Shown piece after piece: positions 1 to 25,696 of a DNA stretch of 26,782 bases (position 1 is its first letter; each line of letters opens with the position of its first letter). Source of the stretch: a virus; IMG/VR virus record IMGVR_UViG_3300035701_000235, positions 1 to 26,782 of that record. One strand, 5' to 3'. Under the pieces are notes generated by a model, which saw nothing but the letters and a program-made list of their open reading frames with translations, did no database searches and was not told where the DNA came from. Both the position numbers and the translations under genes were made by a program.

Positions 1-34
1 AAAAAATATTACGGCGTTGGAATTTATGGGGTGA
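1..34 (+). CDS. C-terminal tail of an upstream gene (partial)
   Basis: Reading from base 2, ten sense codons (KNITALEFMG) run to a TGA at 32-34. The open frame reaches the window edge, and the stop lies just before the next gene's start at 40, the tight spacing used throughout this operon. Too little is visible to assign a function, and such a short open stretch could be chance. Confidence 0.25.
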   Translation, partial: KNITALEFMG

Positions 35-39
35 TATTT

Positions 40-954
40 ATGTCAAAAACAAAAATCGAGTGGGCTGATAGAGTTTGGAACCCTGCCACCGGATGCACAA
101 AGGTGAGTGCGGGGTGTGAGCATTGTTATGCCGAACGTATGGCTGCGCGTTTCTCCTATGGGCTAGAAGCGGGAGGACCGTTTCATGATGTCATCTCGGG
201 AGGAAAGTGGAATGGAAAAGCCCAGCTTCACCACGGCAGGTTGGAACAGCCTTTCCTCTGGAAGAAATCCTGTCGGGTTTTCGTGAACAGCATGGGCGAT
301 TTGTTCCACCCATCTGTGCCGGACGAATATCTTGAAAAAGTGTTTCGCGTCATGGATCAATGCGGCGCTCAAGCGAATTATGGTGACGGTAACTGTGGCC
401 ATCAGTTCATGATCCTAACAAAAAGACCGGAGCGCATGAGAGATTTTGTGGGTCGCTGGTGGAAATCCTACCACGATGTCGGTGTCGAACCTTATGCGGA
501 CAATATCTGGCTGGGCGTGACGGCTGAGAACCAGGCCGCGGCGAATGAGCGGATTCCACTCCTCCTCCAAACGCCGGCGGCGGTGCGCTTTGTCAGCGTT
601 GAACCCATGTTGGAACCCGTCAATTTGGAAACCTACCTCGAAGGAAAAGAGAAACCAAAACTCGATTGGGTCATTTGCGGCGGCGAGACCGGCCCGGGCG
701 CCAGGCCGATGGATCCTCTTTGGGTATGGTTACTGCTCGATCAATGCCAAATCACCAAGGTCCCGTTTTTTTTCAAATCGTGGGGAGAGTGGGGTGACGA
801 TGCAGCGTGGAGCCGTTGGTGCGAAGATCATGACACAAAAACATACGACTGGCCGGAAAACAGAAAACGGGGGAGCCGTTATCGGGTTGGTAGGAAAGCC
901 GCGGGGCGCGAGATTGGCGGGCGAACTTTTGATGAGTTTCCGGTATCAGAATGA
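40..954 (+). CDS. DUF5131 (phage Gp37/Gp68 family) protein
   Basis: A 304-aa protein of the DUF5131 family, common in phages and of unknown biochemical function. Seen: the N-terminal family signature KTKIEW...WNPATGC, then cysteines C19, C26 and C29 (C-x6-C-x2-C, followed by YAER). Near the C-terminus come CGGETGPGARPM and VPFFFKSWGEWG, also typical of the family. The three-cysteine arrangement resembles an iron-sulphur cluster site of the radical-SAM type, but that is inference. ATG at 40 is preferred over GTG at 31 because GGGGTGAT (27-34) lies at correct distance from 40. The family assignment rests on several conserved blocks and is firm. It stands alone upstream of the packaging genes, so its role in the phage cannot be read from context. 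Confidence 0.85.
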   Translation: MSKTKIEWADRVWNPATGCTKVSAGCEHCYAERMAARFSYGLEAGGPFHDVISGGKWNGKAQLHHGRLEQPFLWKKSCRVFVNSMGDLFHPSVPDEYLEKVFRVMDQCGAQANYGDGNCGHQFMILTKRPERMRDFVGRWWKSYHDVGVEPYADNIWLGVTAENQAAANERIPLLLQTPAAVRFVSVEPMLEPVNLETYLEGKEKPKLDWVICGGETGPGARPMDPLWVWLLLDQCQITKVPFFFKSWGEWGDDAAWSRWCEDHDTKTYDWPENRKRGSRYRVGRKAAGREIGGRTFDEFPVSE

Positions 955-963
955 GGCGACATT

Positions 964-1155
964 ATGCATTGTCCTGTATGTAATGGTTTCGGAAAAATAA
1001 AAGACCCAAGCGAGTGGGGAAGGACGCGCAGAAAAAAAGCGGTTATCGTTTTAAGAACCGCAGGTTTCGGAATTCGGGAGATCCAGAGATTGGTCGGATA
1101 TGTGTCGCCTCGTTCTGTTTCGCTGATATTGAAAAATTACATGAGTGAGGGATGA
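964..1155 (+). CDS. Small zinc-knuckle plus helix-turn-helix protein
   Basis: A 63-aa basic protein. The N-terminus CPVCNGFGKI has the C-x2-C-x-G-x-G form of a DnaJ-type or rubredoxin-like half zinc finger. Residues about 22-60 read as a helix-turn-helix, with a helix ending in VLRTAGFG, then IREIQRLVGY and SPRSVSLILKNYM. It starts nine bases after the DUF5131 stop with GAGGCGA (952-958) as ribosome site. A DNA-binding regulatory role is likely from the fold alone; the target is unknown. The next gene is a second small HTH protein, so the pair may act together. With a single CxxC, metal binding would need a dimer or a partner. Confidence 0.7.
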   Translation: MHCPVCNGFGKIKDPSEWGRTRRKKAVIVLRTAGFGIREIQRLVGYVSPRSVSLILKNYMSEG

Positions 1156-1156
1156 T

Positions 1157-1342
1157 ATGCGGAGAAAATATACGGAATTGCGAGACAAAGAGATCGTTCG
1201 GAGACTGAACGGCGGCGATTACCCAAAAAATATCGCCAGTGAACTTGGAATTACTCCGTCCCAGGTGTGGAATGCTCGACGGAGGGAAACAAAGTACAGG
1301 AAAGTACAGCAAATTACAGGAAATACCAGGAGCCTTTCTTAA
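1157..1342 (+). CDS. Small helix-turn-helix DNA-binding protein
   Basis: A 61-aa basic protein. Residues about 8-38 (KEIVRRLNGGDYPKNIASEL, then GITPSQVWNARRR) form a homeodomain-like/resolvase-type helix-turn-helix. The C-terminal tail is basic and low in complexity because it is encoded by four tandem 10-bp repeats (1291-1330). ATG at 1157 is chosen over GTG at 1145 because GAGGGA (1147-1152) precedes it at good spacing and the start then sits just past the previous stop (1153-1155). Likely a regulator or a DNA-binding accessory of packaging or late transcription. It might bind the repeats inside its own 3' end, but that is inference. Confidence 0.7.
   Translation: MRRKYTELRDKEIVRRLNGGDYPKNIASELGITPSQVWNARRRETKYRKVQQITGNTRSLS
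1291..1330 (+). repeat. Four tandem 10-bp iteron-like repeats
   Basis: AAAGTACAGG, AAAGTACAGC, AAATTACAGG and AAATACCAGG follow each other with no spacer. The 10-bp period is close to one helical turn, so a bound protein would contact the same DNA face at each unit. The array lies in the last codons of the HTH gene and ahead of the hairpin cluster. Because 10 is not a multiple of 3, each unit is read in a different frame, so a protein-level repeat cannot explain the conservation. Confidence 0.75.
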
Positions 1343-1364
1343 CTTATTGCAGTACACTGAAGTC

Positions 1365-1414
1365 AGGTGAGAGTCCCGACAGGAGGAGTAGATGTCGGAG
1401 CTTTCACCTTTTTT
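1365..1414 (+). terminator. Long hairpin with T-run, enclosing a ribosome site
   Basis: Bases 1365-1380 pair with 1394-1409 (16 positions, one C-A mismatch, two G-T wobbles). The 13-base loop AGGAGGAGTAGAT is followed at 1409-1414 by six T. The shape fits an intrinsic terminator. The loop also holds a perfect Shine-Dalgarno and the first two bases of the ATG at 1392, so the fold may instead act as a translational switch for the 82-aa frame. First of three such hairpins in 180 bases. Confidence 0.55.
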
Positions 1415-1640
1415 GTTTCACGGCAAAAACGTAAAAAATATATTTAAGGGATTCTCACCGACTCCCGACAGGTCCGGCGGAAATTCACATGCCGGGCCTT
1501 CTTTTTTTAAGCAGGTCGCCGTTATTATCATGGCGGCCTTTCTTTTTGGTGTTGTCATCGTATTTGCCACGGGTTGCGCCGGGAAGAATGAATATCAAGA
1601 ACGAGAAATCATTGACCCATTATTGATTGCCAGATTTTGA
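1392..1640 (+). CDS. Possible small membrane lipoprotein
   Basis: An 82-aa frame. Residues about 41-60 (QVAVIIMAAFLFGVVIVFAT) are strongly hydrophobic and lead into GCAGKNE, an acceptable but weak lipobox with Cys at +1. ATG at 1392 has a perfect AGGAGG five bases upstream. An alternative ATG at 1530 would start directly at the hydrophobic segment and look like a normal signal peptide, but it has no good ribosome site. The first 46 residues look unlike a designed domain and overlap hairpin/T-run structures, so this stretch may really be leader RNA. After the stop, a different frame stays protein-like to 1699. Function is unknown; a spanin-like or surface lipoprotein is possible only by analogy. 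Confidence 0.4.
   Translation: MSELSPFLFHGKNVKNIFKGFSPTPDRSGGNSHAGPSFFKQVAVIIMAAFLFGVVIVFATGCAGKNEYQEREIIDPLLIARF
1471..1508 (+). terminator. Rho-independent terminator-like hairpin
   Basis: GGTCCGGC (1471-1478) pairs with GCCGGGCC (1491-1498) over eight positions with one G-T wobble, plus an outer A-T pair. The loop is 12 bases and is followed by TTC and seven T. This is a textbook intrinsic terminator shape on the + strand. It lies inside the 82-aa frame and would end transcription of the upstream HTH genes before the packaging operon unless antitermination or read-through occurs. Confidence 0.6.
1514..1547 (+). terminator. Second terminator-like hairpin in tandem
   Basis: GGTCGCC (1514-1520) pairs with GGCGGCC (1532-1538), with one G-T wobble, an outer A-T pair and an 11-base loop, followed by TTTCTTTTT (1539-1547). 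It comes 6 bases after the previous T-run, forming a tandem terminator. It overlaps the hydrophobic segment of the 82-aa frame, so part of the T-richness could come from the hydrophobic codons. Confidence 0.45.
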
Positions 1641-1676
1641 GCGACTCGCATAAAGACCATCCGGGCTATGAGCCGA

Positions 1677-1692
1677 TGCCGGGAAACCGGCA
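1677..1692 (+). other. GNRA-capped hairpin in intergenic gap
   Basis: TGCCGG and CCGGCA pair perfectly around a GAAA tetraloop, a very stable RNA element. No T-run follows, so it is not a terminator. It lies in the 115-base gap 1641-1755, in which I see no convincing promoter; a smaller GGCT/AGCC hairpin (1664-1674) precedes it. It could be an RNA processing or stability element of the packaging operon's leader. Confidence 0.4.
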
Positions 1693-1755
1693 GATTTAAC
1701 AGCAGTTCTATTATGCGCGTAGTACAGTGACAATTGAAATTTTGGGGAAAAACGC

Positions 1756-1932
1756 ATGAAAAAGAAAACGAAATACACGGTGGGGAAAGAATTTGGGGAC
1801 AATGCTTCGCGTGCCCAGATGTGCGATGGAGTCGGGAGGCTTTGCACTCTTTTGAATCAAAGAATCCTCGGCTGTGCCGACCGGGAGGAATTGCGCGGGA
1901 AGATGATCGTGGTCACGGTTGAGGTGAGGTGA
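1756..1932 (+). CDS. Hypothetical 58-aa protein before the small terminase
   Basis: ATG at 1756 to TGA at 1930-1932 gives a 58-aa product beginning MKKKTKYTVG and ending KMIVVTVEVR. It has normal amino acid composition and a central helix-like stretch with three Cys. GGGG (1744-1747) lies eight bases upstream as a modest ribosome site. A longer frame on the same strand (from 1734) gives a less natural Trp/His/Arg-rich sequence and is rejected. The 3' end, GAGGTGAGGTGA, doubles as the ribosome site of the small terminase gene, so the two are translationally linked. I do not recognise the family. Confidence 0.55.
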   Translation: MKKKTKYTVGKEFGDNASRAQMCDGVGRLCTLLNQRILGCADREELRGKMIVVTVEVR

Positions 1933-1938
1933 CTTTCA

Positions 1939-2439
1939 ATGAATGTATCAATGGGACGAAAAGATACTCGATTCAAAAAAGGGCACAAGCTTGCTCCCGG
2001 AGGAGCGAGAGAGGGCGCAGGCCGTCCCTCTGAAATTCATCGTGCCGAATGTCGACGACTTTTTGAAGAAAACAAATTTCGTGAAATGCTTTGCGCCGCC
2101 GCCAACGGTAAAAATGTTGACATCACAATAAACATGGACGGAAAAATTATCCACATTCCCACCGGTTTCGGAAACAAACTGAAAGCGATTGCATGGCTTG
2201 GCGAGCAAGGGTATGGCAAGGCACCTCAGGAAATTCAGCACACCATTTCCCCGGAAACGCTTGAGAAATTTGAACGTCAACTCCTGAGCATCTTCAACGC
2301 TTATGTCCCAAAAATGTGCCCGCATTGCAGGACAGCGCTCAAGTTGCCTCCGAATCTCGCAAAAGAAATTATGGAACTTTCCAAAATATTCGAACAGGAG
2401 GAGACGGATGCCTCCGTCATTGACGCGGCCAAGGTCTAA
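1939..2439 (+). CDS. terS: Putative terminase small subunit
   Basis: A 166-aa protein directly upstream of, and overlapping, the large terminase, the usual place of the small subunit that recognises DNA for packaging. The N-terminus RFKKGHKLAPGG followed by AREGAGRPS is the basic motif common at the start of phage small terminase-like and DUF5681-like proteins. A mixed helical region follows, with a C-terminal CPHC and acidic helices (about residues 125-160) that could contact the large subunit. ATG at 1939 has GAGGTGAGGTGA (1921-1932) at ideal spacing; ATG at 1951 is an alternative. The call rests mainly on position and the N-terminal motif, since small terminases diverge strongly. Confidence 0.65.
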   Translation: MNVSMGRKDTRFKKGHKLAPGGAREGAGRPSEIHRAECRRLFEENKFREMLCAAANGKNVDITINMDGKIIHIPTGFGNKLKAIAWLGEQGYGKAPQEIQHTISPETLEKFERQLLSIFNAYVPKMCPHCRTALKLPPNLAKEIMELSKIFEQEETDASVIDAAKV

Positions 2440-3946
2440 CTCCGCGGCGCTTGCCGAAGTTGTGCGGCGCGTAGGCCAGGGCATGATCCCGAACGAGATC
2501 AGCCTCCGTGATTTCATTGAGCGTGGTTGGCGTATCATCGAGCCCGCCACACCTCTCGAACTCAACTGGCATCACGATCTCATCCTCGAATATCTGGAGG
2601 CCGCATTCCTACGGAAGATCAAACGTCTCGTCATTAACGTTCCTCCACGAACGCTCAAGTCCATCCTGACGTCAGTGTTGTGGCCCGCATGGGCCTGGAC
2701 GCGCGCCCCGTGGAGCAGGTGGATGTTCACCTCCTACTCGCAGAGCCTGGCCACGGAGTTCTCAACCCGCCGGCGCCGGGTGATCAAAGACGACTGGTAT
2801 CAGGGCCAGTGGGGGAAGTTTGTGAATCTGGCCTTGGATCAGGACATGAAGACGGAGTTTGAGAATAAGCAAACCGGAAAGATGCAGAGCACATCAACTG
2901 GTGGTACGACCACGGGCAAGGGCGCGGACTACATTGTCATGGACGACCCGCAGAATCCGAAGATGGCGGAATCCGAGGCGGAGCGAAAAAGCACAAACGA
3001 ATTTTATACCAACACCCTGCTCTCCCGACTCAACAACAAAAAAACAGACGTCATGGTGTTGGTGCAACAGCGACTACATGCGGAAGACACAACGTCGCTC
3101 GTCCTGAAAGAGGGAGGATGGGAACATGTTTGCGTTCAGGCTCTCGCTCAAGCGCGCAAGACCTACTCGTTCCCGATTTCCAAAAAGAAGCACATCGTCA
3201 AGGTGGGGGAATATCTTCAGCCTTTGAGAGAGGGACCGGCGGAATATGCGAAGTTGCGAAAAGGGATGGGCGAGCGCACTCACGACGCCCAGTATCAACA
3301 GGCGCCCACATCCGAGGTGGGGAATATTTGGAAACGGCATTACTGGAACTTCTACAACGCGCTCCCAAAAGAATTTGATTTTGTCCTTCAATCATGGGAC
3401 ATGACTTTTACGGACACGACCGGTTCCTCTTTCGTGAGTGGTCAAGTTTGGGCGATGATCGGGGCAAAGAAATATTTGCTCGACGAGGTTCACGCGCAAC
3501 TCAACTACCCCAACTCCAAGCGCGCCATGCTCGCCCTCCTGGCCAAGTGGCCGAGCACGAGGGCCGTACTGGTCGAGGACAAGGCAAACGGCCCCGCTAT
3601 AGTTGCGGACCTGAAGAGCACTATCCCGGGGATGATACCCGTCACGCCTCTCGGTGACAAGATCGTGCGCGCCGTGGCGGTAACACCGACGATCGAAGCC
3701 GGCGACTGCTACATTCCCTCCCCCGAGATCGCGCCGTGGGTTAACGAATGGCTCAACGAGACGGCGGCCTTTCCCGAGCAAAAACTCAAGGATCGGGTGG
3801 ACGCGGCCAGCCAGGCGCTTTCGAGGATGGACGAGTTGGCGCTCGTACTGGCCGGCGCGAAAGAGGCACAGTCGGAACATGAAGGGCTTGACGACGGGAT
3901 GGGCGAAACAGTGTTTAACGAAGAAGAGGTTTTTTCCAATGTTTGA
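2408..3946 (+). CDS. terL: Terminase large subunit (ATPase-nuclease)
   Basis: A 512-aa DNA-packaging motor. N-terminal ATPase: Walker A variant VPPRTLKS (residues 78-85), the SYSQSLA segment near 109-115, and Walker B YIVMDD (175-180). C-terminal RNase H-like nuclease: QSWDMTF (D331), VEDKANG (E390, D391), and DRVDAASQAL near 470 supplying the last acidic residue. Length is normal for the family with this C-terminal domain. ATG at 2408 is chosen for the CAGGAGGAGA just upstream. It overlaps the small terminase by 32 bases, and its last 8 bases overlap the portal gene, so the three are likely translationally coupled. It moves DNA into the prohead through the portal and cuts concatemers. Confidence 0.95.
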   Translation: MPPSLTRPRSNSAALAEVVRRVGQGMIPNEISLRDFIERGWRIIEPATPLELNWHHDLILEYLEAAFLRKIKRLVINVPPRTLKSILTSVLWPAWAWTRAPWSRWMFTSYSQSLATEFSTRRRRVIKDDWYQGQWGKFVNLALDQDMKTEFENKQTGKMQSTSTGGTTTGKGADYIVMDDPQNPKMAESEAERKSTNEFYTNTLLSRLNNKKTDVMVLVQQRLHAEDTTSLVLKEGGWEHVCVQALAQARKTYSFPISKKKHIVKVGEYLQPLREGPAEYAKLRKGMGERTHDAQYQQAPTSEVGNIWKRHYWNFYNALPKEFDFVLQSWDMTFTDTTGSSFVSGQVWAMIGAKKYLLDEVHAQLNYPNSKRAMLALLAKWPSTRAVLVEDKANGPAIVADLKSTIPGMIPVTPLGDKIVRAVAVTPTIEAGDCYIPSPEIAPWVNEWLNETAAFPEQKLKDRVDAASQALSRMDELALVLAGAKEAQSEHEGLDDGMGETVFNEEEVFSNV

Positions 3947-5723
3947 ACTCCTGAAAAACTGGTATGGGGCGCACATTGAGGAAAGCCGTGTGCGACTGGC
4001 GCAGGTTCGTAACCGCCTCGAAATGGAAGAGGTGATGTCCTCAACGATTGAGGAAGCCTCGAATCTGGTGACTGAGAAATCGATGGGCGGCGGATGGGAT
4101 AGAACCGGCGGGACCTCTCAATATTGCCACACACCGTCAGATCAGCAGTCCATGCTAAAGCAGTGCCGAAACGCCGCACGTTTTGATCCAAACGCAAAGG
4201 CCGCTCTCATGACGGCGGTTTATTACATCGTCGGCGAAGGTGTGAAGGTTAACCCACAATCGAAGGATCACCGCATACAAAAACTCTGGCGGGAATTTTG
4301 GGATTCCCCCAGAAACCATATGGCACTTCGATTTCCGGAACTTGTACTTCGGACGTTCCGCGACGGTGAAATACTTTTGCAGTATTACAGCAGGGACGAA
4401 GCAGGTCAACCGTCATGGAAAACAACCGTCCGTTTTCGTGATGTTGAACTGCTATCGCAGCCAACCATCGGACAGGATGGGACGGGCAATGACGCTTCTC
4501 AGGGGATCAGAATTGATCCGAACGACCCAGAAAAGGAGATCGCTTTCTTTTTGAGAAAGAACTACACGAGCTCGGAAATAGAATCCGTCGACGCAAAAGA
4601 AATTCAGCACATCAAGATTCTTTCTGATTCGGAACAAAAGCGTGGTGAGTCCTACCTCCAGGCTTCGCTAGACCTTTTCAGTTACTACAAGGACTGGCTC
4701 AAATACCGGATCATCCTCAACAAGGTCCGCACGGCAATCGTGCTGATCCGAAAGGTGGAGGGCGGAACATCCGACGACGTGAAAGCCATCGCCAACAAAA
4801 TCTCCGAATCTTCCACAGCCAGAACCGGACAAGTCAAAAAGCAACTTCCTCCCCCTGGAACCATTCTTAACGCCAACAGTGGCGTGGACTACCGTTTTGA
4901 ATCAGCCAACATTAACGCAGGAGACGCCTCCGAGGATGGCCGCAATATTAAACTCGGAATGGCCGCGGCGACAAACATGCCGGAGTATGTTTTCGGTGAT
5001 GCGAGCAACTCCAACTACGCATCCACGCTGATTGCGGAGTCTCCTTTTGTGAAAGGGATCCGTTTCTGGCAAACCTTCTTTGAGCAACATCTCAAAGAAA
5101 TGTTTCGGCGTGTTGTGCAGGCGGCCGTTGATGCAGGCAAGCTGACGGCGCCGACCGAGGAAGATATTTTTCAGGATCCAGGATCAAAGCAAATAACGGA
5201 AGCAGTCGACCCGAACGTGCCCCCTAAACCTGCCGATGAACCTTCAAAGGTACCGGCCAATGTTTCGGAACCGAACCCAAAGGGTGGCGACAAGGAATCC
5301 GGAACTGGATCCATGATTTCGGAAGCGGAAGCATTTTTCAAATGTGACGTGCAATGGCCGGAGATCGTGCATCGGGACATGAAAGCGACGACGGACGCCA
5401 TCATCGCCCAGGTCAACGCCAAACTCGTGAGCGAGCCGACGGCGTCGCAGATGCTCGGGCATGACTACGACGAAGAAGTCCGGCGTCAACAACTCGTCGA
5501 AGAGGGTGCGGAGCATAATCCATTCAAGCAAAAAACGGATTCATTCGGGGACCCCCAGATGGACGCGGAAGTCAATGACTTGATGGCAGGTCTATCGCCG
5601 GAAGAGTCCGACGCGATACTCAAGAGTGGAGACGCGGGAAGCGTGATGAAACTGCTCAAGAAAAAGAAAGGGATCATTCCGGGCGTGCCGGGCGGAAAAC
5701 CGCCGGTCGCTCTGACCCAATAG
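3939..5723 (+). CDS. Portal protein, lambda family
   Basis: A 594-aa portal that forms the dodecameric DNA channel at one capsid vertex. Family features in order: FDPNAKAALMTAVYYIVGEG (about residues 84-103), the dimension segment WREFWDSP, FRDGEILLQYY, then SEQKRGESYLQASLDLFSYY with the lambda-portal RG-x-S motif. Later come NMPEYVFGDASNSNYAST and SPFVKGIRFWQTFF. A Pro/Lys/Glu-rich linker (about 425-470) and a charged C-terminal region follow and are less conserved. ATG at 3939 has AAGAGGT (3924-3930) upstream; extending to 3879 would only read through the terminase gene in another frame. It follows the large terminase with an 8-base overlap, the normal gene order. Confidence 0.93.
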   Translation: MFELLKNWYGAHIEESRVRLAQVRNRLEMEEVMSSTIEEASNLVTEKSMGGGWDRTGGTSQYCHTPSDQQSMLKQCRNAARFDPNAKAALMTAVYYIVGEGVKVNPQSKDHRIQKLWREFWDSPRNHMALRFPELVLRTFRDGEILLQYYSRDEAGQPSWKTTVRFRDVELLSQPTIGQDGTGNDASQGIRIDPNDPEKEIAFFLRKNYTSSEIESVDAKEIQHIKILSDSEQKRGESYLQASLDLFSYYKDWLKYRIILNKVRTAIVLIRKVEGGTSDDVKAIANKISESSTARTGQVKKQLPPPGTILNANSGVDYRFESANINAGDASEDGRNIKLGMAAATNMPEYVFGDASNSNYASTLIAESPFVKGIRFWQTFFEQHLKEMFRRVVQAAVDAGKLTAPTEEDIFQDPGSKQITEAVDPNVPPKPADEPSKVPANVSEPNPKGGDKESGTGSMISEAEAFFKCDVQWPEIVHRDMKATTDAIIAQVNAKLVSEPTASQMLGHDYDEEVRRQQLVEEGAEHNPFKQKTDSFGDPQMDAEVNDLMAGLSPEESDAILKSGDAGSVMKLLKKKKGIIPGVPGGKPPVALTQ

Positions 5724-5737
5724 GGAGAAAACACAAT

Positions 5738-5899
5738 ATGCCAATAGGATCTGTTTCAGCAGTTGATGCGCAAAAAGTCACTGATCGAGCATGGCAAATA
5801 CAAAACCAGATATCCGAAATCATCCGGAATTTGACACTTGCCAAGGCCGAAGAACTTCTGAAGATTGTTCAAAACTTCAATGATGAGTTGCACCCCTAG
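5738..5899 (+). CDS. Hypothetical 53-aa helical protein
   Basis: ATG at 5738 to TAG at 5897-5899, a 53-aa product beginning MPIGSVSAVDAQ. It is almost entirely predicted helix with Gln/Ile/Leu spacing suggesting a short coiled coil (about residues 12-50). GGGAGA after the portal stop serves as ribosome site, and its stop directly abuts the next gene's ATG at 5900. Position between portal and MuF-like gene, and coiled-coil nature, resemble the small gpW-size or head-assembly accessory proteins found there in other phages, but I do not recognise the family. Confidence 0.6.
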   Translation: MPIGSVSAVDAQKVTDRAWQIQNQISEIIRNLTLAKAEELLKIVQNFNDELHP

Positions 5900-7015
5900 A
5901 TGGCGAAGATCCTCTCATCAATCGAAGCGAAGAAAATCTACTCCCGCTATCCCGCGTTGGCGCGTACGCGCACATGGGTAACGATCGACGAGCTTCTCAA
6001 TGCCGGGCAGATCGACTCGGCATGGTCCCTGGCGGAGAAGGTCTCCAAGGCGTCCAAACAGATCAACGCCCAAAATATAACGGCTAGGAAGTTGAGGGTT
6101 GAACGCCTGAAGTTCTTCGCTTTGCAGGGCGCGATGATCGCAGAACTCCAGAGCCTGATGCAGGCGGCGGGCAAGCGAATCACTGACCAAGCGCAGGGGG
6201 CCAAACCGACACCCGCCTCTTTGCGCGATGTCAAGCGAATGGTGACAGTTGAGATGGGGATTCTCAGGCGTGCCATGATGAAGTGGGTGACGGATGCTGT
6301 CTGGGGTTCCGTGGAGATGGGTTTTCGAAACGTTGAAGCCGCACTCCTGCCGGTCTTCAAAGACAATCAAGAATGTCTTGACCAAGAGACTTGGAAGGAA
6401 ATGAATTTGATGGAAGAGCGGTTGACCTTCAGCATGGCGAAGACTCTGGCGAACAACGGAACCCCACAGATGGCGAAAAGTTCACAGGCATACCAGTCCG
6501 CCACCGACAATGCGTATCGGAACATCGTCAAGAAGAACAACGCGGGACTTCAGCTCTTTTCCAGAATCTGGGATTTGACGAAGCGTTCGGAGTTGGACCT
6601 TCAACGGATTTTGGAACGCGATATTTCAATCGGAACTTCTAGCAGGGACCTTGCAAAGAACGTCAAAGGCTACCTTTCGGACGAACCCGTATCCGGCCCT
6701 GGGGTCTACACCAAGCCGATGGCGAACGCCATGCGGATGGCGAGGACGGAGATGAACCGCGCCTACGTCGCCGCCCAGGCGGAGTGGGCGAAGACTCGGG
6801 GGTGGGTTGACGGTTTGATGGTCACATTATCTTCCGCACACGACGGTGGATCAGAGTGTGACTGCGAGGCGAACGCGGGCAAGGTCATGGATCCGGAGAC
6901 CTTCGCGGACACAGTGCCCTTCCACCCCCATTGCATGTGTTACGCGACGGTCGTCATCAAGGATGAATACGTAAATTTCGAGGAGGGGGTCAAAAATGCC
7001 GTCGCCGTTCTTTGA
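5900..7015 (+). CDS. MuF/SPP1 gp7-like minor head protein
   Basis: A 371-aa head morphogenesis protein of the MuF/SPP1 gp7 type, a minor capsid component that associates with the portal and DNA. The C-terminal domain carries MRMARTEMNRAYVAAQAEWA, then SSAHDGG...CDC...AG, and finally PFHPHCMCYATVV. This His/Cys set (C-x-C and HPHC-x-C) is the family's conserved, probably metal-binding, core. The N-terminal two thirds is helical and variable. It starts immediately after the preceding 53-aa gene, and its last 20 bases overlap the glycosyltransferase gene. No toxin or enzyme domain is fused at the C-terminus. Confidence 0.88.
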   Translation: MAKILSSIEAKKIYSRYPALARTRTWVTIDELLNAGQIDSAWSLAEKVSKASKQINAQNITARKLRVERLKFFALQGAMIAELQSLMQAAGKRITDQAQGAKPTPASLRDVKRMVTVEMGILRRAMMKWVTDAVWGSVEMGFRNVEAALLPVFKDNQECLDQETWKEMNLMEERLTFSMAKTLANNGTPQMAKSSQAYQSATDNAYRNIVKKNNAGLQLFSRIWDLTKRSELDLQRILERDISIGTSSRDLAKNVKGYLSDEPVSGPGVYTKPMANAMRMARTEMNRAYVAAQAEWAKTRGWVDGLMVTLSSAHDGGSECDCEANAGKVMDPETFADTVPFHPHCMCYATVVIKDEYVNFEEGVKNAVAVL

Positions 7016-7712
7016 AATCATTCTTCCTTCATGCAACCGGCCGCGACTCTTGAAACGAGCCGTTGCTTCCGCTTTGGCGCAGACGTACCAAAACTTTCGA
7101 CTCTGGGTGCTCGACATGTCGTCTCCGGAAAACTGGGAACGGATACAGAAAGACTGGAATGACCATATTTTCCGAGGAACTCACACCATTCGGCACTTCG
7201 ATACGCCGAAGGGTGTTGTCCCATATTCCTGGATGACAAATCAGATTTGGGGCGTGCTCAAGGAAGATTCTTGGGTGAGCTACTTGACGGACGATGCCTA
7301 TTATCCTGCCGACCGTTTGGAGATATTTGCGGAGGAAATTGGCGCCCATCCGGAAATTGAAGCCCTTTATGGTCAGCAGATTCGCATCAACTGCGGGGCG
7401 AAAAAGTTTCCTGTAGGTGAACATGTGAAGTTCATGGTGGCGCGGTCCGTCGATAAGAAGGAACTGGCGGAGCATAACTGGATTGACCATAACGCTCTCG
7501 TTCATAAAGTTGATCTCCTCAAAGAGGAAAAAACACCCTGGGTGATAGAACTGAAATGGATCAAGGTGGGCGACTGGAAGTGTTGGCACAAGATCATCGA
7601 AAAGACGGACATCTCATATGTTAAACGAGTGGTGGCTTTTGACGAGTGGTGGCCAAACGGGTTATCAGAAAGTTCCGATTTGCAATTGAAAGAAAAATTC
7701 GGTGCCCTGTGA
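6996..7712 (+). CDS. Glycosyltransferase family 2-like (GT-A) in the head module
   Basis: A 238-aa protein opening with the GT2 N-terminal signature (residues 8-41): a beta strand ending IILPSCNRP, helix LLKRAVASALAQTYQ, then strand FRLWVLD. The acidic LTDDAYY at about 97-103 is in the place of the DXD motif that holds the metal and nucleotide sugar. The C-terminal half has several Trp-rich segments and no membrane helix. Its start overlaps the MuF-like gene by 20 bases, with a GAGGAGGGGG ribosome site, and the protease/scaffold gene follows 15 bases later. Co-translation with head genes suggests it modifies a virion protein rather than DNA or the cell surface, but this is inference. The donor and acceptor are unknown. 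Confidence 0.8.
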   Translation: MPSPFFEIILPSCNRPRLLKRAVASALAQTYQNFRLWVLDMSSPENWERIQKDWNDHIFRGTHTIRHFDTPKGVVPYSWMTNQIWGVLKEDSWVSYLTDDAYYPADRLEIFAEEIGAHPEIEALYGQQIRINCGAKKFPVGEHVKFMVARSVDKKELAEHNWIDHNALVHKVDLLKEEKTPWVIELKWIKVGDWKCWHKIIEKTDISYVKRVVAFDEWWPNGLSESSDLQLKEKFGAL

Positions 7713-7727
7713 TAAGAGGAGGCGTCT

Positions 7728-8687
7728 ATGAAAGAAAAATTGATGGATCTGGGTGAGAGCATGGATTTGAGTGAGTCGCTCGGCGGCGCGAAGATCGATG
7801 AGGCGGCGGGCGTGATCCACGACGTCGTCCTGATGACGGGCAACGTGATTTCGGAAAACAAAACGAAGTACAGCGCGAAGGCCGTCCAGGAGGGGCTGAC
7901 CCGGTATGAGGGAGCGAAGATGTACCTCGACCACCCGCGAACGGACGAACTCAAGGAGCGGCGTGGCAATCGGTCTATCCGGGACCTTGCGGGGGTCTTC
8001 CGCAATCTCCATGTCGAGGAAGGGCCGACCCCGAGGCTCCGGGGGAACCTGCATTTGATGGAATCCGTCAAGAATATCGTGATTTCCATAGCGAAGAATC
8101 CACCGAAGCATACGGGGCTTTCGCTCCGTGACCGGGGATTCTACCGCCAGGAAAAAGGAGTGACCTTAGTCGAGGGATTCGAGGAGGGGGTTGACTACAG
8201 CGTTGACCTCGTCACTCGGGCTTCCCTCAACAAGAGTCTGTTTGAATCTACACAAGAAGGAGGAGGTGAAGAAACCATGGACCTGACAAAGTTGACGATT
8301 GAAGAACTCAAGGAGGGGCGCAAAGACCTCGTTGAGTCCATCCAGAAGGAGGCGACCTCCGCGATCTCCAAGCAATTGGAGGAGGCGGGTGTCAAATCCC
8401 TGGAGGCCAGCAAACTCGTGGCGCTGGCCGAAAGCGGTATGCCGGTGGAGTTCAAGGACTCCATCCGTCCCGCCATCATGAAGGCTGAGGTCACTCTGGA
8501 AGAGGCGAAGAAAATCATCCTCCTCCAAGAGTCTTTGGCTACGAAATTCTCGGTGAAGTCCGAGGAAAATAAATCCGCCGGAAACGGTGAACCCGCCGTG
8601 AAGGCAGGAAGTGCGCGTCCCATCGAAGAGGGCAAGAAACAAGACGCCCCCGATGAAGCCGCGTTTGTTTCTGCATTCAAGCGGTAA
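7728..8687 (+). CDS. Head maturation protease fused to scaffold
   Basis: A 319-aa protein in the protease/scaffold slot before decoration and major capsid genes. The N-terminal domain (1-180) has the pattern of phage prohead proteases of this layout: VVLMTGNVIS, KMYLDHP (H69), RSIRDLAGVF, then HTGLSLRDRG (H128, S132) and DYSVDLVTRA (D160). H69 and S132 are my candidates for the catalytic pair. The C-terminal domain (184-319) is highly charged and helical like scaffolding proteins, ending AFVSAFKR. AAGAGGAGG lies six bases before the ATG. The same gene has an internal start (see 8277). The protease would process scaffold and possibly capsid during prohead maturation; exact peptidase family is uncertain. 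Confidence 0.75.
   Translation: MKEKLMDLGESMDLSESLGGAKIDEAAGVIHDVVLMTGNVISENKTKYSAKAVQEGLTRYEGAKMYLDHPRTDELKERRGNRSIRDLAGVFRNLHVEEGPTPRLRGNLHLMESVKNIVISIAKNPPKHTGLSLRDRGFYRQEKGVTLVEGFEEGVDYSVDLVTRASLNKSLFESTQEGGGEETMDLTKLTIEELKEGRKDLVESIQKEATSAISKQLEEAGVKSLEASKLVALAESGMPVEFKDSIRPAIMKAEVTLEEAKKIILLQESLATKFSVKSEENKSAGNGEPAVKAGSARPIEEGKKQDAPDEAAFVSAFKR
8261..8269 (+). promoter_or_regulatory. Perfect internal Shine-Dalgarno in the protease gene
   Basis: AGGAGGTGA, a full match to the 3' end of 16S rRNA, sits inside the protease reading frame (preceded by AAGG), seven bases before an in-frame ATG at 8277. It is as strong as any gene-start site in the window and encodes part of a Gly/Glu linker between the two domains. 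Confidence 0.85.
8277..8687 (+). CDS. Nested scaffolding protein (internal in-frame start)
   Basis: Translation from ATG 8277 in the frame of the protease gene gives a 136-aa product beginning MDLTKLTIEELKEG. It consists of charged amphipathic helices with an acidic/Lys-rich C-terminus, as expected of an internal scaffold that templates capsid assembly and is then removed. The evidence is the perfect AGGAGGTGA at 8261-8269 and the domain boundary just before Met184. Lambda C/Nu3 and several other phages use the same nested arrangement to make scaffold in excess over protease. Capsid and decoration genes follow directly. Confidence 0.75.
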   Translation: MDLTKLTIEELKEGRKDLVESIQKEATSAISKQLEEAGVKSLEASKLVALAESGMPVEFKDSIRPAIMKAEVTLEEAKKIILLQESLATKFSVKSEENKSAGNGEPAVKAGSARPIEEGKKQDAPDEAAFVSAFKR

Positions 8688-8710
8688 CTTGAAACAAGGA
8701 GGAACAAAAC

Positions 8711-9142
8711 ATGTCAAATAAATTCAACTACCGTTCCGGCCCGAAGGACGTTGTTCGTGTGCCTATCGCGTCGGGTACGGTGGTAGAGATCGGTGACCTT
8801 CTCAAGCTCTCCTCGGGGAGAGCGGTGTTGATGGCCACCACGACCGACAACCTCACCTTCATCGGTGTGGCGGAGGAAGCGCACCTGGCGACGGATCCCT
8901 CGGGATCAATTTCCATGGCGAAGGCCAACCTTCAAACGGTGTATGAATACACCTTGGACGCGGAAACGGCAATCACCTATGGTGATATCCTGCAGTACAA
9001 CGCGGCCAAGACGCTGAAAAAATCAACGACCGACGGAATCGCAATTGCTGTTCGGTCCGAACTGGCCGCCACGACCGTACTCTGCATGTTCCGCCCGATT
9101 CAGGCGGCAGGCAATCTGTGCGATCTCGGCGACCCGAGCTAA
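8711..9142 (+). CDS. Capsid decoration/cement protein (DUF2190-like)
   Basis: A 143-aa beta-rich protein between scaffold and major capsid genes, the usual site of a head decoration protein. Sequence features resemble DUF2190-type cement proteins: KDVVRVPIASGTVVEIGDLL (about 12-31), GVAEEA, and a late YGDILQYN followed by a short strand region. AAGGAGGAACAAAAC precedes ATG 8711. It would bind the outside of the expanded capsid and stabilise it against DNA pressure. The two C-terminal Cys (about 124 and 136) are unusual for such a short protein but otherwise nothing is odd. Confidence 0.75.
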   Translation: MSNKFNYRSGPKDVVRVPIASGTVVEIGDLLKLSSGRAVLMATTTDNLTFIGVAEEAHLATDPSGSISMAKANLQTVYEYTLDAETAITYGDILQYNAAKTLKKSTTDGIAIAVRSELAATTVLCMFRPIQAAGNLCDLGDPS

Positions 9143-9154
9143 GGAGGAACGACC

Positions 9155-10240
9155 ATGAAAGGAATCGCAGTCAGAGACCTTTTTGAGTCCTTCGCCCGCG
9201 ACCACACGGATCCGAAAGTTGCGAACCGTGCGTTCAGCGATAAGGTGATGGGTCTCATCAAGGAAAAGAAAATCAGCATCTCGGATGTTTCCCTCAAGGA
9301 ACTCTGGGAAGGCCTGGTGGTTGCCCGTGGGATGGAAGAGTCCGCCTCTTCCACCGCGTTCCCGACGATCGCGGGGGAGATTATCTCCAGCGTCATGATC
9401 GCCGGTTACGATCAGTTCCCGAAACAAGGTCTTAGCCTTGTTCGCGTGGTTCCCTCGAAACAGAAGATCAGCCAGATTGTCGGCTGGCAGGGGATTGGCA
9501 AGCTGAGTCGTTCGAGCGAGGTCCGCGAGAAGGAAGACTACCCCGCGATCACCCCGCCCGAGGAGAAGGAAATTCGTATTAAGAATAAAAAGAACGGTCT
9601 GGTGGTTGCCTTGACGAAAGAGGCGATCTTCTTTGACCGGACCGGCCAGATCATGGGCGAGGCCTCGATGGTGGGCGCGGAACTGGCCCGCTGGCAGGAC
9701 GAGGTCATCATGTGCACCCTCATCGACCTCGATGCGACGGCCTACGACCTCGGCGACATGTTCAGCGGGGGCAACTCGAACTCCTACTCCGGCGCGGCCA
9801 CCGCGCTCGGCACGGCGGCGTTCGAAACCATGCTGACGTACTACCGAAAAAAGACGGACGAGCGCGGGAGGAAGATCAATACTCTCCCTGGCAAGCCCGT
9901 CCTCATGCACCCTGCGGACTTGGAATTCACCGTGGACAAGTTGTTGAACAACGAGAAAGGCCCCATCGGAACGGCGGCCCAATCGGACGTCAACACGGCA
10001 CGTGGAAAATTCCAGCCGATCCTCAACCCGTACTTTACCTCCACGACCGCTTGGCTCTTGGGTGACTTCAAGAACTCGGCGCGGTGGGAAGAAGTGTGGC
10101 CTCTGGAGACTTACCAGCGGATAGGCGGATTGACGGAAGATGGGTTCAAAAAGGACGTCGTCGCGGAGTACAAAGGCAGCATCTACGGTGGGTGCGGATA
10201 CGACGACATCCGTCGGGTGATCGAGTTCGCGGGAGCCTAA
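9155..10240 (+). CDS. Major capsid protein (HK97 fold)
   Basis: A 361-aa protein following scaffold and decoration genes, with the size and position of the main shell subunit. The N-terminal arm (1-60) is helical. SSTAFPTIAGEIISSVMIAG (about 66-85) and YDQFPKQGLSLVRVVPSKQK are typical of Mu gpT-like/HK97-fold capsid proteins at the start of the ordered domain. KKNGLVVALTKEAIFFDRTG gives the spine helix region, and HPADLEF...GKFQPILNPYF with late YGGCGYDDIRRVIEF complete the P- and A-domain pattern. AAGGAGGAACGACC is the ribosome site. A gap with stable hairpins follows, which may protect or limit this transcript. Confidence 0.88.
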   Translation: MKGIAVRDLFESFARDHTDPKVANRAFSDKVMGLIKEKKISISDVSLKELWEGLVVARGMEESASSTAFPTIAGEIISSVMIAGYDQFPKQGLSLVRVVPSKQKISQIVGWQGIGKLSRSSEVREKEDYPAITPPEEKEIRIKNKKNGLVVALTKEAIFFDRTGQIMGEASMVGAELARWQDEVIMCTLIDLDATAYDLGDMFSGGNSNSYSGAATALGTAAFETMLTYYRKKTDERGRKINTLPGKPVLMHPADLEFTVDKLLNNEKGPIGTAAQSDVNTARGKFQPILNPYFTSTTAWLLGDFKNSARWEEVWPLETYQRIGGLTEDGFKKDVVAEYKGSIYGGCGYDDIRRVIEFAGA

Positions 10241-25315: not shown

Positions 25316-25696
25316 ATGATGCACGACCACAATGAGAAAAAGAAGCCGATGTTCTGCACGCTGATGGGCGAGATTTGCGTAGAGGGATGGACTTCGAAGA
25401 TGGGGGAGAATCCAGAAACCCATGAGCGCCCACGATGCAACAAATGGGTTGGCGTCTTTGTCAACAACAAGGTCAAGAAGCAAGTCGAGGAAGTCTTCGA
25501 CTGCAACGAGCAGTGGGCAACTGACATGATCCAGCAGGTGGCGGAGGAGGTTTACCAGAATGCCGTGGCCACCGAGCAGGCGCGGAACCTCATCGCCGAT
25601 CAAACAACCGGACTCAAGCAAGTGACCCAGGTTTTTTCAGGGATTTTAGAACAGGTTAAACGAAGGCAAAATCAAATCGAGGGGAAGCAAACATGA
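25316..25696 (+). CDS. Hypothetical Cys-containing protein
   Basis: A 126-aa hydrophilic protein starting MMHDHNEKKK with AGGAGGG six bases upstream of ATG 25316 (25319 is equally in frame). Cysteines at about 14, 21, 41 and 63 sit in the N-terminal half as possible zinc ligands (C-x6-C, C-x-N). The C-terminal half (60-126) is one long helix with heptad-like spacing (ADQTTGLKQVTQVFSGILEQ). It is transcribed with the tail genes, and its stop overlaps the next ATG. I do not recognise the family; an assembly chaperone or a structural adaptor are possible. Confidence 0.55.
   Translation: MMHDHNEKKKPMFCTLMGEICVEGWTSKMGENPETHERPRCNKWVGVFVNNKVKKQVEEVFDCNEQWATDMIQQVAEEVYQNAVATEQARNLIADQTTGLKQVTQVFSGILEQVKRRQNQIEGKQT

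Follow-up and report, generated by a model that had tools for sequence, protein, structure and literature searches.

A dense array of three putative intrinsic terminators, the first folded over a start site, ahead of the packaging genes of a tailed phage

Introduction

What purpose could be served by three stem-loops with T-rich tails, crowded together directly ahead of the packaging genes of a phage, with the first of them enclosing a ribosome-binding site? The question is raised by an IMG/VR virus record of 26,782 bases from a bacterial tailed phage, analysed here over its full length and referred to as the window. The three hairpins are denoted H1, H2 and H3, and their setting is compiled below.

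31-954, upstream of the hairpins: DUF5131/phrog_2045 gene (PHROG/Pfam profile match)
1145..1342, + strand: gene of a 65-aa HTH-like protein, GTG start predicted
1392..1640, + strand: 82-aa frame with one hydrophobic segment, residues 42-60 (Kyte-Doolittle 2.88)
1756-1932, between H3 and TerS: 58-aa frame, codon score 0.171, typical for the genes of this phage
1939..2439, + strand: terminase small subunit (TerS), assigned by position and by 74-76% identity to the gene in the same position of the nearest relative
2408..3946, + strand: terminase large subunit (TerL; PHROG phrog_38, E 1.4e-93)
3879-5723, same strand as TerL: portal (phrog_21, E 5.1e-32)
5900-7015, same strand as TerL: head morphogenesis protein (phrog_1657, E 7.7e-28)

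The region thus leads into the packaging operon, as an initial annotation of this DNA had stated, with TerS, TerL and portal all lying downstream. The gene in the TerS position itself had no PHROG match and no confident Pfam match, and the 58-aa frame gave no relative in the protein search and no PHROG or Pfam match. In a scan of bacterial genome contigs no relative of TerL was found, and the head protein had eight distant relatives (26-37% identity). Upstream of the hairpins two small HTH-type proteins are encoded, one of 63 and one of 65 aa, the latter matching the PHROG family phrog_836, 'late transcriptional activator', with E 3.1e-4 over residues 8-57, that is, in its HTH part only, and Pfam HTH_23 with E 3.4e-4, under the curated cut-off. 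The 65-aa gene has its stop codon 22 nt ahead of H1. Towards the end of the same frame (window 1290-1323) a 10-base unit, about AAGTACAGGA, occurs three times in tandem.

Three Terminator-Type Hairpins within 183 Nucleotides

The hairpins and their tails, the latter read from the sequence, are as follows.

1365-1409, + strand: H1 terminator hairpin, -23.9 kcal/mol, with an 11-nt loop at 1382-1392
1409-1414, + strand: U6 tract of H1
1470-1499, + strand: H2 terminator hairpin, -17.2 kcal/mol, within the 82-aa frame
1499-1508, + strand: U-rich tract of H2, UUCUUUUUUU
1513-1539, + strand: H3 terminator hairpin, -15.5 kcal/mol, within the 82-aa frame
1539-1547, + strand: U-rich tract of H3, UUUCUUUUU

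Each of the three has the form of an intrinsic terminator, a stable stem-loop with a U-rich tract directly after it; the three stems with T-runs that had been described within about 180 bases are indeed present at 1365-1547, and the wording 'more than a single terminator' was well chosen for three hairpins of terminator grade. The 231-nt region folds with -79 kcal/mol (mean of the shuffles -57.9 kcal/mol, z = -4.17), and none of 200 shuffles was as stable. A strict, purpose-made scan for stems with a U-tract after them, run on both strands of the whole 26,782-base window, returned three matches on the + strand, exactly H1, H2 and H3, spanning 183 nt, and two on the - strand, separate from one another. 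Dinucleotide shuffles (n = 60) gave a mean of 1.37 such matches per strand, with two of them within 200 nt in 0/60. Among 36 related-phage loci (388 kb, some overlapping, the duplicates L001, L003 and L011 left out), the strict scan found a pair within 200 nt in four and a triple in none. A simpler terminator scan of positions 1-6000, with a loop limit of 8, returned H3 alone of the three, because the loops of H1 and H2 both exceed 8. Chance origin of the cluster is rejected on the grounds of the regional fold and the strict-scan shuffles; the triple terminator arrangement is real and unusually dense, each of its parts being of a familiar kind.

Two further features of the region were considered and set aside. 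The 10-base direct repeat TCCCGACAGG is present at 1374 and 1463, as had been noted early on, but is weak as stand-alone evidence and was dropped as such: of 2000 shuffled versions of the region, 32 had some 10-mer repeat, and 21 pairs of 10-mer repeats at most 100 nt apart, overlapping ones included, occur in the window. A search of the region against Rfam 15 gave no family above its gathering threshold and no known antitermination RNA family; the sole match was to ctRNA_pGA1 (19.3 bits versus a gathering score of 45, E 0.46). An antisense ctRNA is rejected in view of this score, far below gathering, and of the missing terminator-like tail on the minus strand at H1.

The Start Site inside H1 and the 82-aa Frame

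The special feature of H1 is the start site that it encloses.

1381..1386, + strand: AGGAGG Shine-Dalgarno, 5 nt ahead of ATG 1392

Five of the six AGGAGG bases and the A of the ATG lie in the H1 loop, with the UG in the stem, which agrees with the claim that the first loop holds both AGGAGG and the start of the 82-aa frame. The computed cost of opening the RNA at ATG 1392 (±60 context) amounts to 19.4 kcal/mol, the highest among 26 chosen starts, the remaining ones that were folded requiring 4.4-16.2 kcal/mol; it drops to 7.1 kcal/mol if the RNA is taken to begin at 1378, that is, without the 5' arm of H1. The energetics suggest that H1 may lock the start site of the 82-aa frame. The + strand of the window has 14 sites of the form AGGAGG-(4 to 9 nt)-ATG, and 12 of the 13 others fit starts of long frames, with the exception near 25545 (2408 being used as the TerL start, two of the frames being shortened and a further one still open where the record ends). 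Because these other sites match gene starts so consistently, ATG 1392 is probably used as a start.

The frame itself is probably, though not certainly, the gene of a small membrane protein, judging by its single hydrophobic segment. The TGC after this segment resembles a lipobox. Some of the hydrophobicity may be incidental, since the U-tracts account for part of the T-rich codons; measured from the start of the frame, H2 follows after 78 nt and H3 after 121 nt. Protein searches returned no relatives of the 82-aa protein. Its codon score of -0.013 ranks between coding and non-coding, and is below both limits used (5th percentile of in-frame segments, 0.008; 95th percentile of out-of-frame segments, 0.035). 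The two adjoining small HTH-like genes score low as well (-0.139 and -0.019), and for this reason the codon score has little power here.

Related Phages

By TerL, the nearest relatives are L002/G001 (88%) and L004/G002 (74-75%), and in neither L002 nor L004 was there a DNA or small-protein counterpart to window 900-2000. Searches with the region DNA, with the 82-aa, 58-aa and 65-aa proteins and with TerS found no record that shares the hairpins. In one region DNA search, the best 10 of 137 matches (E up to 10) covered 3-4% of the query with E 0.3-4 and were taken as noise; another returned four records with E 0.4, all over the same 44 bases.

L002 and L004 carry inverted repeats of their own, both imperfect, at 4747-4775/4827-4855 in L002 (29 nt arms, 86%, T-rich loop of 51 nt) and at 4749-4808/4864-4923 in L004 (60 nt arms, 70%, T-rich loop of 55 nt). 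Their scores of 53.5 and 54, respectively, compare with shuffled maxima of 27-33.5 from eight mononucleotide shuffles of the L002 stretch only, and their fold z values are -4.01 and -2.91. Alignment gave no convincing homology between these repeats and the window hairpins, and the idea of a shared sequence was dropped. In three more distant phages (L008, L009 and L010, 42-44% TerL identity) no inverted repeat of comparable strength was found. In this group a strong hairpin structure repeatedly precedes the packaging genes, in the form of different elements.

Some side observations on these relatives may be added. The inverted repeats of L002 and L004 precede two small shared genes, alike by eye (4920-5252 and 5249-5581 in L002, 4958-5221 and 5197-5571 in L004), which are followed by TerS and have no positional counterpart in the window; candidate roles of the repeats are a terminator, an RNase III site, an origin or a packaging site. 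At 3279-3689 L002 encodes a 136-aa protein that begins in the manner of a lipoprotein, with a hydrophobic stretch and then TGC; it is a separate candidate for a small lipoprotein ahead of TerS. DNA identity of the window to its nearest relative is 74% at 2020-5707 versus 96% at 5900-9843, and the jump at 5708-5899 therefore suggests a recombination border near 5.7-5.9 kb.

A Probable Redundant Terminator Array

The reading that we favour, with a probability of roughly 0.6, is that of an array of three intrinsic (Rho-independent) terminators lying after the HTH-type genes and before the packaging/structural operon, H1 in addition locking a start site. Observed are the hairpins with their U-tracts, the stability computed for them and the way they cluster. 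RNA polymerase arriving from upstream would be released successively at one or other of the three hairpins, and upstream transcription would thereby reach the packaging genes weakly. In E. coli, as described in the consulted part of PMC4824070, lambda tR2 is repressed by the ribosome when the terminator has a stop codon nearby, and its efficiency rises with stop-codon distance to become maximal beyond about 27-30 nt; according to the same part, terminators placed within the initial 100 bp of a coding region remain functional. A trailing ribosome could weaken H1, 22 nt past the stop codon, with H2 and H3 serving as back-ups, and such back-ups make sense because H1 would be partly exposed to ribosome interference.

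The promoters of the region bear on how tight such a barrier could be.

1417..1444, + strand: weak sigma-70-like promoter match, TTCACG-16-TATATT, 9/12 matches, between H1 and H2

Sigma-70-like matches numbered six versus 3.7 expected in 6 kb, both strands, which is not clearly above shuffles. On the + strand none was found between 1445 and 3575, a search by which a phage-specific promoter would be missed, and the packaging genes may on this account depend on transcripts that pass at least H2 and H3. That no promoter could be recognised from H3 to the terminase genes speaks, as far as sequence can tell, for some read-through. Three points count against the array as a plain barrier. Packaging transcripts may need passage of H2 and H3, which would fit a regulated terminator better; the 82-aa frame, with its strong Shine-Dalgarno and spanning both H2 and H3, may be unusual for a plain terminator region if it is a real gene; and the two nearest relatives have no similar sequence at the site.

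Alternative Readings

Regulated passage is at the heart of the first alternative, a late leader of the lambda type. The packaging transcript would start from a promoter located at H1-H2 or ahead of it, and H2 and H3 (and H1 as well, if the start lies upstream) would stop it early, until a phage protein, perhaps one of the upstream HTH proteins, permits late passage. The site directly ahead of the packaging operon, the promoter-like match at 1417-1444 together with none between H3 and terminase, and the match of the 65-aa protein to a 'late transcriptional activator' PHROG are all consistent with such a leader. However, the promoter match is weak, an HTH match alone does not define an antiterminator, and no antitermination RNA family was matched in Rfam 15; we consider this leader unlikely.

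The second alternative replaces the protein by translation and requires a competing partner for the 5' arm of H1.

1361..1377, + strand: 5' arm of the alternative stem, overlapping the H1 5' arm
1448..1463, + strand: 3' arm of the alternative stem, which also folds locally as 1448-1466

The H1 5' arm would pair either with its own 3' arm, leaving the start locked, or with 1448-1463, freeing the start; translating ribosomes would then cover H2 and H3, and polymerase would pass. The duplex 1361-1377/1448-1463 reaches -27.7 kcal/mol. No shuffled target (n = 2000) equalled it, and among 3806 positions with this geometry, taken across the window in 7-base steps, two did, of which one or both may be this site itself. 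As a free inverted-repeat search the same stem scores 29.5, inside the shuffled maxima of 25-33.5 (eight shuffles), and it stands out only once the H1 arm is specified. With a transcript end at 1462 the alternative fold is favoured, with an ensemble share of 0.87, and the cost of opening the start site is lowered from 19.4 kcal/mol to 13.4 (transcript to 1462) or 15.4 (to 1470); the almost regular use of AGGAGG-ATG sites as gene starts in this phage points in the same direction. The favoured window is, however, a few nucleotides wide: from an end at 1471, and at four longer ends, H1 holds 0.93-0.99 and the alternative 0.005-0.074, since 1448-1466 folds on itself. Moreover, the alternative stem forms after polymerase has cleared H1 and therefore cannot decide termination there; it could matter solely for translation of the 82-aa frame, and hence for H2 and H3. 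H2 lies less than 100 bp into the frame, a zone in which E. coli terminators still work (PMC4824070, consulted part), the codon score of the frame is ambiguous, and no record found shares the region for covariation. A translation-coupled switch of this kind is accordingly judged quite improbable, and its fullest form, in which H1, the partner 1448-1463 and the 82-aa frame make up one bistable RNA whose folding sets translation and whose translation sets passage of H2 and H3, a timing switch without a dedicated antiterminator protein, is a slimmer prospect again. The initial annotation had suggested an antitermination or translational switch. Computed energetics support a translational effect of H1; for a switch proper, Rfam 15 gave no known antitermination family, and the alternative pairing is minor at five of six transcript lengths. 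An active switch is possible.

Least credible is a control site at the DNA level, in which the 12-base motif GGTGAGANTCCC, exact at 1366-1377 (+) and 1448-1459 (-) and nowhere else in the window, would form inverted operators on both sides of the promoter-like 1417-1444 for a putative HTH protein, two small HTH genes lying upstream, and the terminators would be incidental, for this leaves the terminators unexplained, and with up to two mismatches the motif is no commoner than chance (8 matches versus 8.5 expected).

Returning to the terminator array, the locus, if read correctly, would place the transcriptional boundary of the packaging operon for a phage group about which little is known, and would offer a dense natural example of back-up terminators joined to a locked start site. 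Were the switch true, late phage genes would be timed through translation of a short membrane-protein frame.

Comparison with Known Systems

In the open-licence library searched, no paper was found on tandem terminators together with the terminase small subunit. The parts of the locus are already known in kind, as tandem intrinsic terminators and as a start site locked by a hairpin in T4 (PMC3014915, consulted part). With tandem intrinsic terminators the array shares the G+C-rich stem, the short loop and the U-tract, occurring three times along a single strand at the boundary of an operon; it differs in that three stand within 183 nt, versus at most two within 200 nt in the 36 related loci, and in that H2 and H3 lie inside an open frame with H1 over its start.

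The hairpins of T4 gene e, soc, 49 and I-TevI, as covered by the consulted part of PMC3014915, likewise hold Shine-Dalgarno and AUG in a helix of upstream-derived transcripts, which for H1 is a computed property. In T4 the 5' strand of the helix contains a late promoter that yields lock-free transcripts, whereas no sigma-70-like promoter was found at the equivalent place here, where a phage-specific one would be missed. The T4 helix is not described as a terminator in that part of the paper, in contrast to the terminator-grade H1. Lambda tR2 in a small frame (W48 construct with the NinA start; consulted part of PMC4824070) is also a terminator within the first 100 bp, but a single one in a reporter construct, whereas here H1 covers the start and two more follow. 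Finally, in the leader-peptide attenuator of pil1 from Streptococcus gallolyticus (PMC3894217, consulted part), a frame runs into terminator stem-loops just as the 82-aa frame runs into H2 and H3; the pil1 element is opened by the ribosome and was genetically tested, whereas the present one is known from its arrangement.
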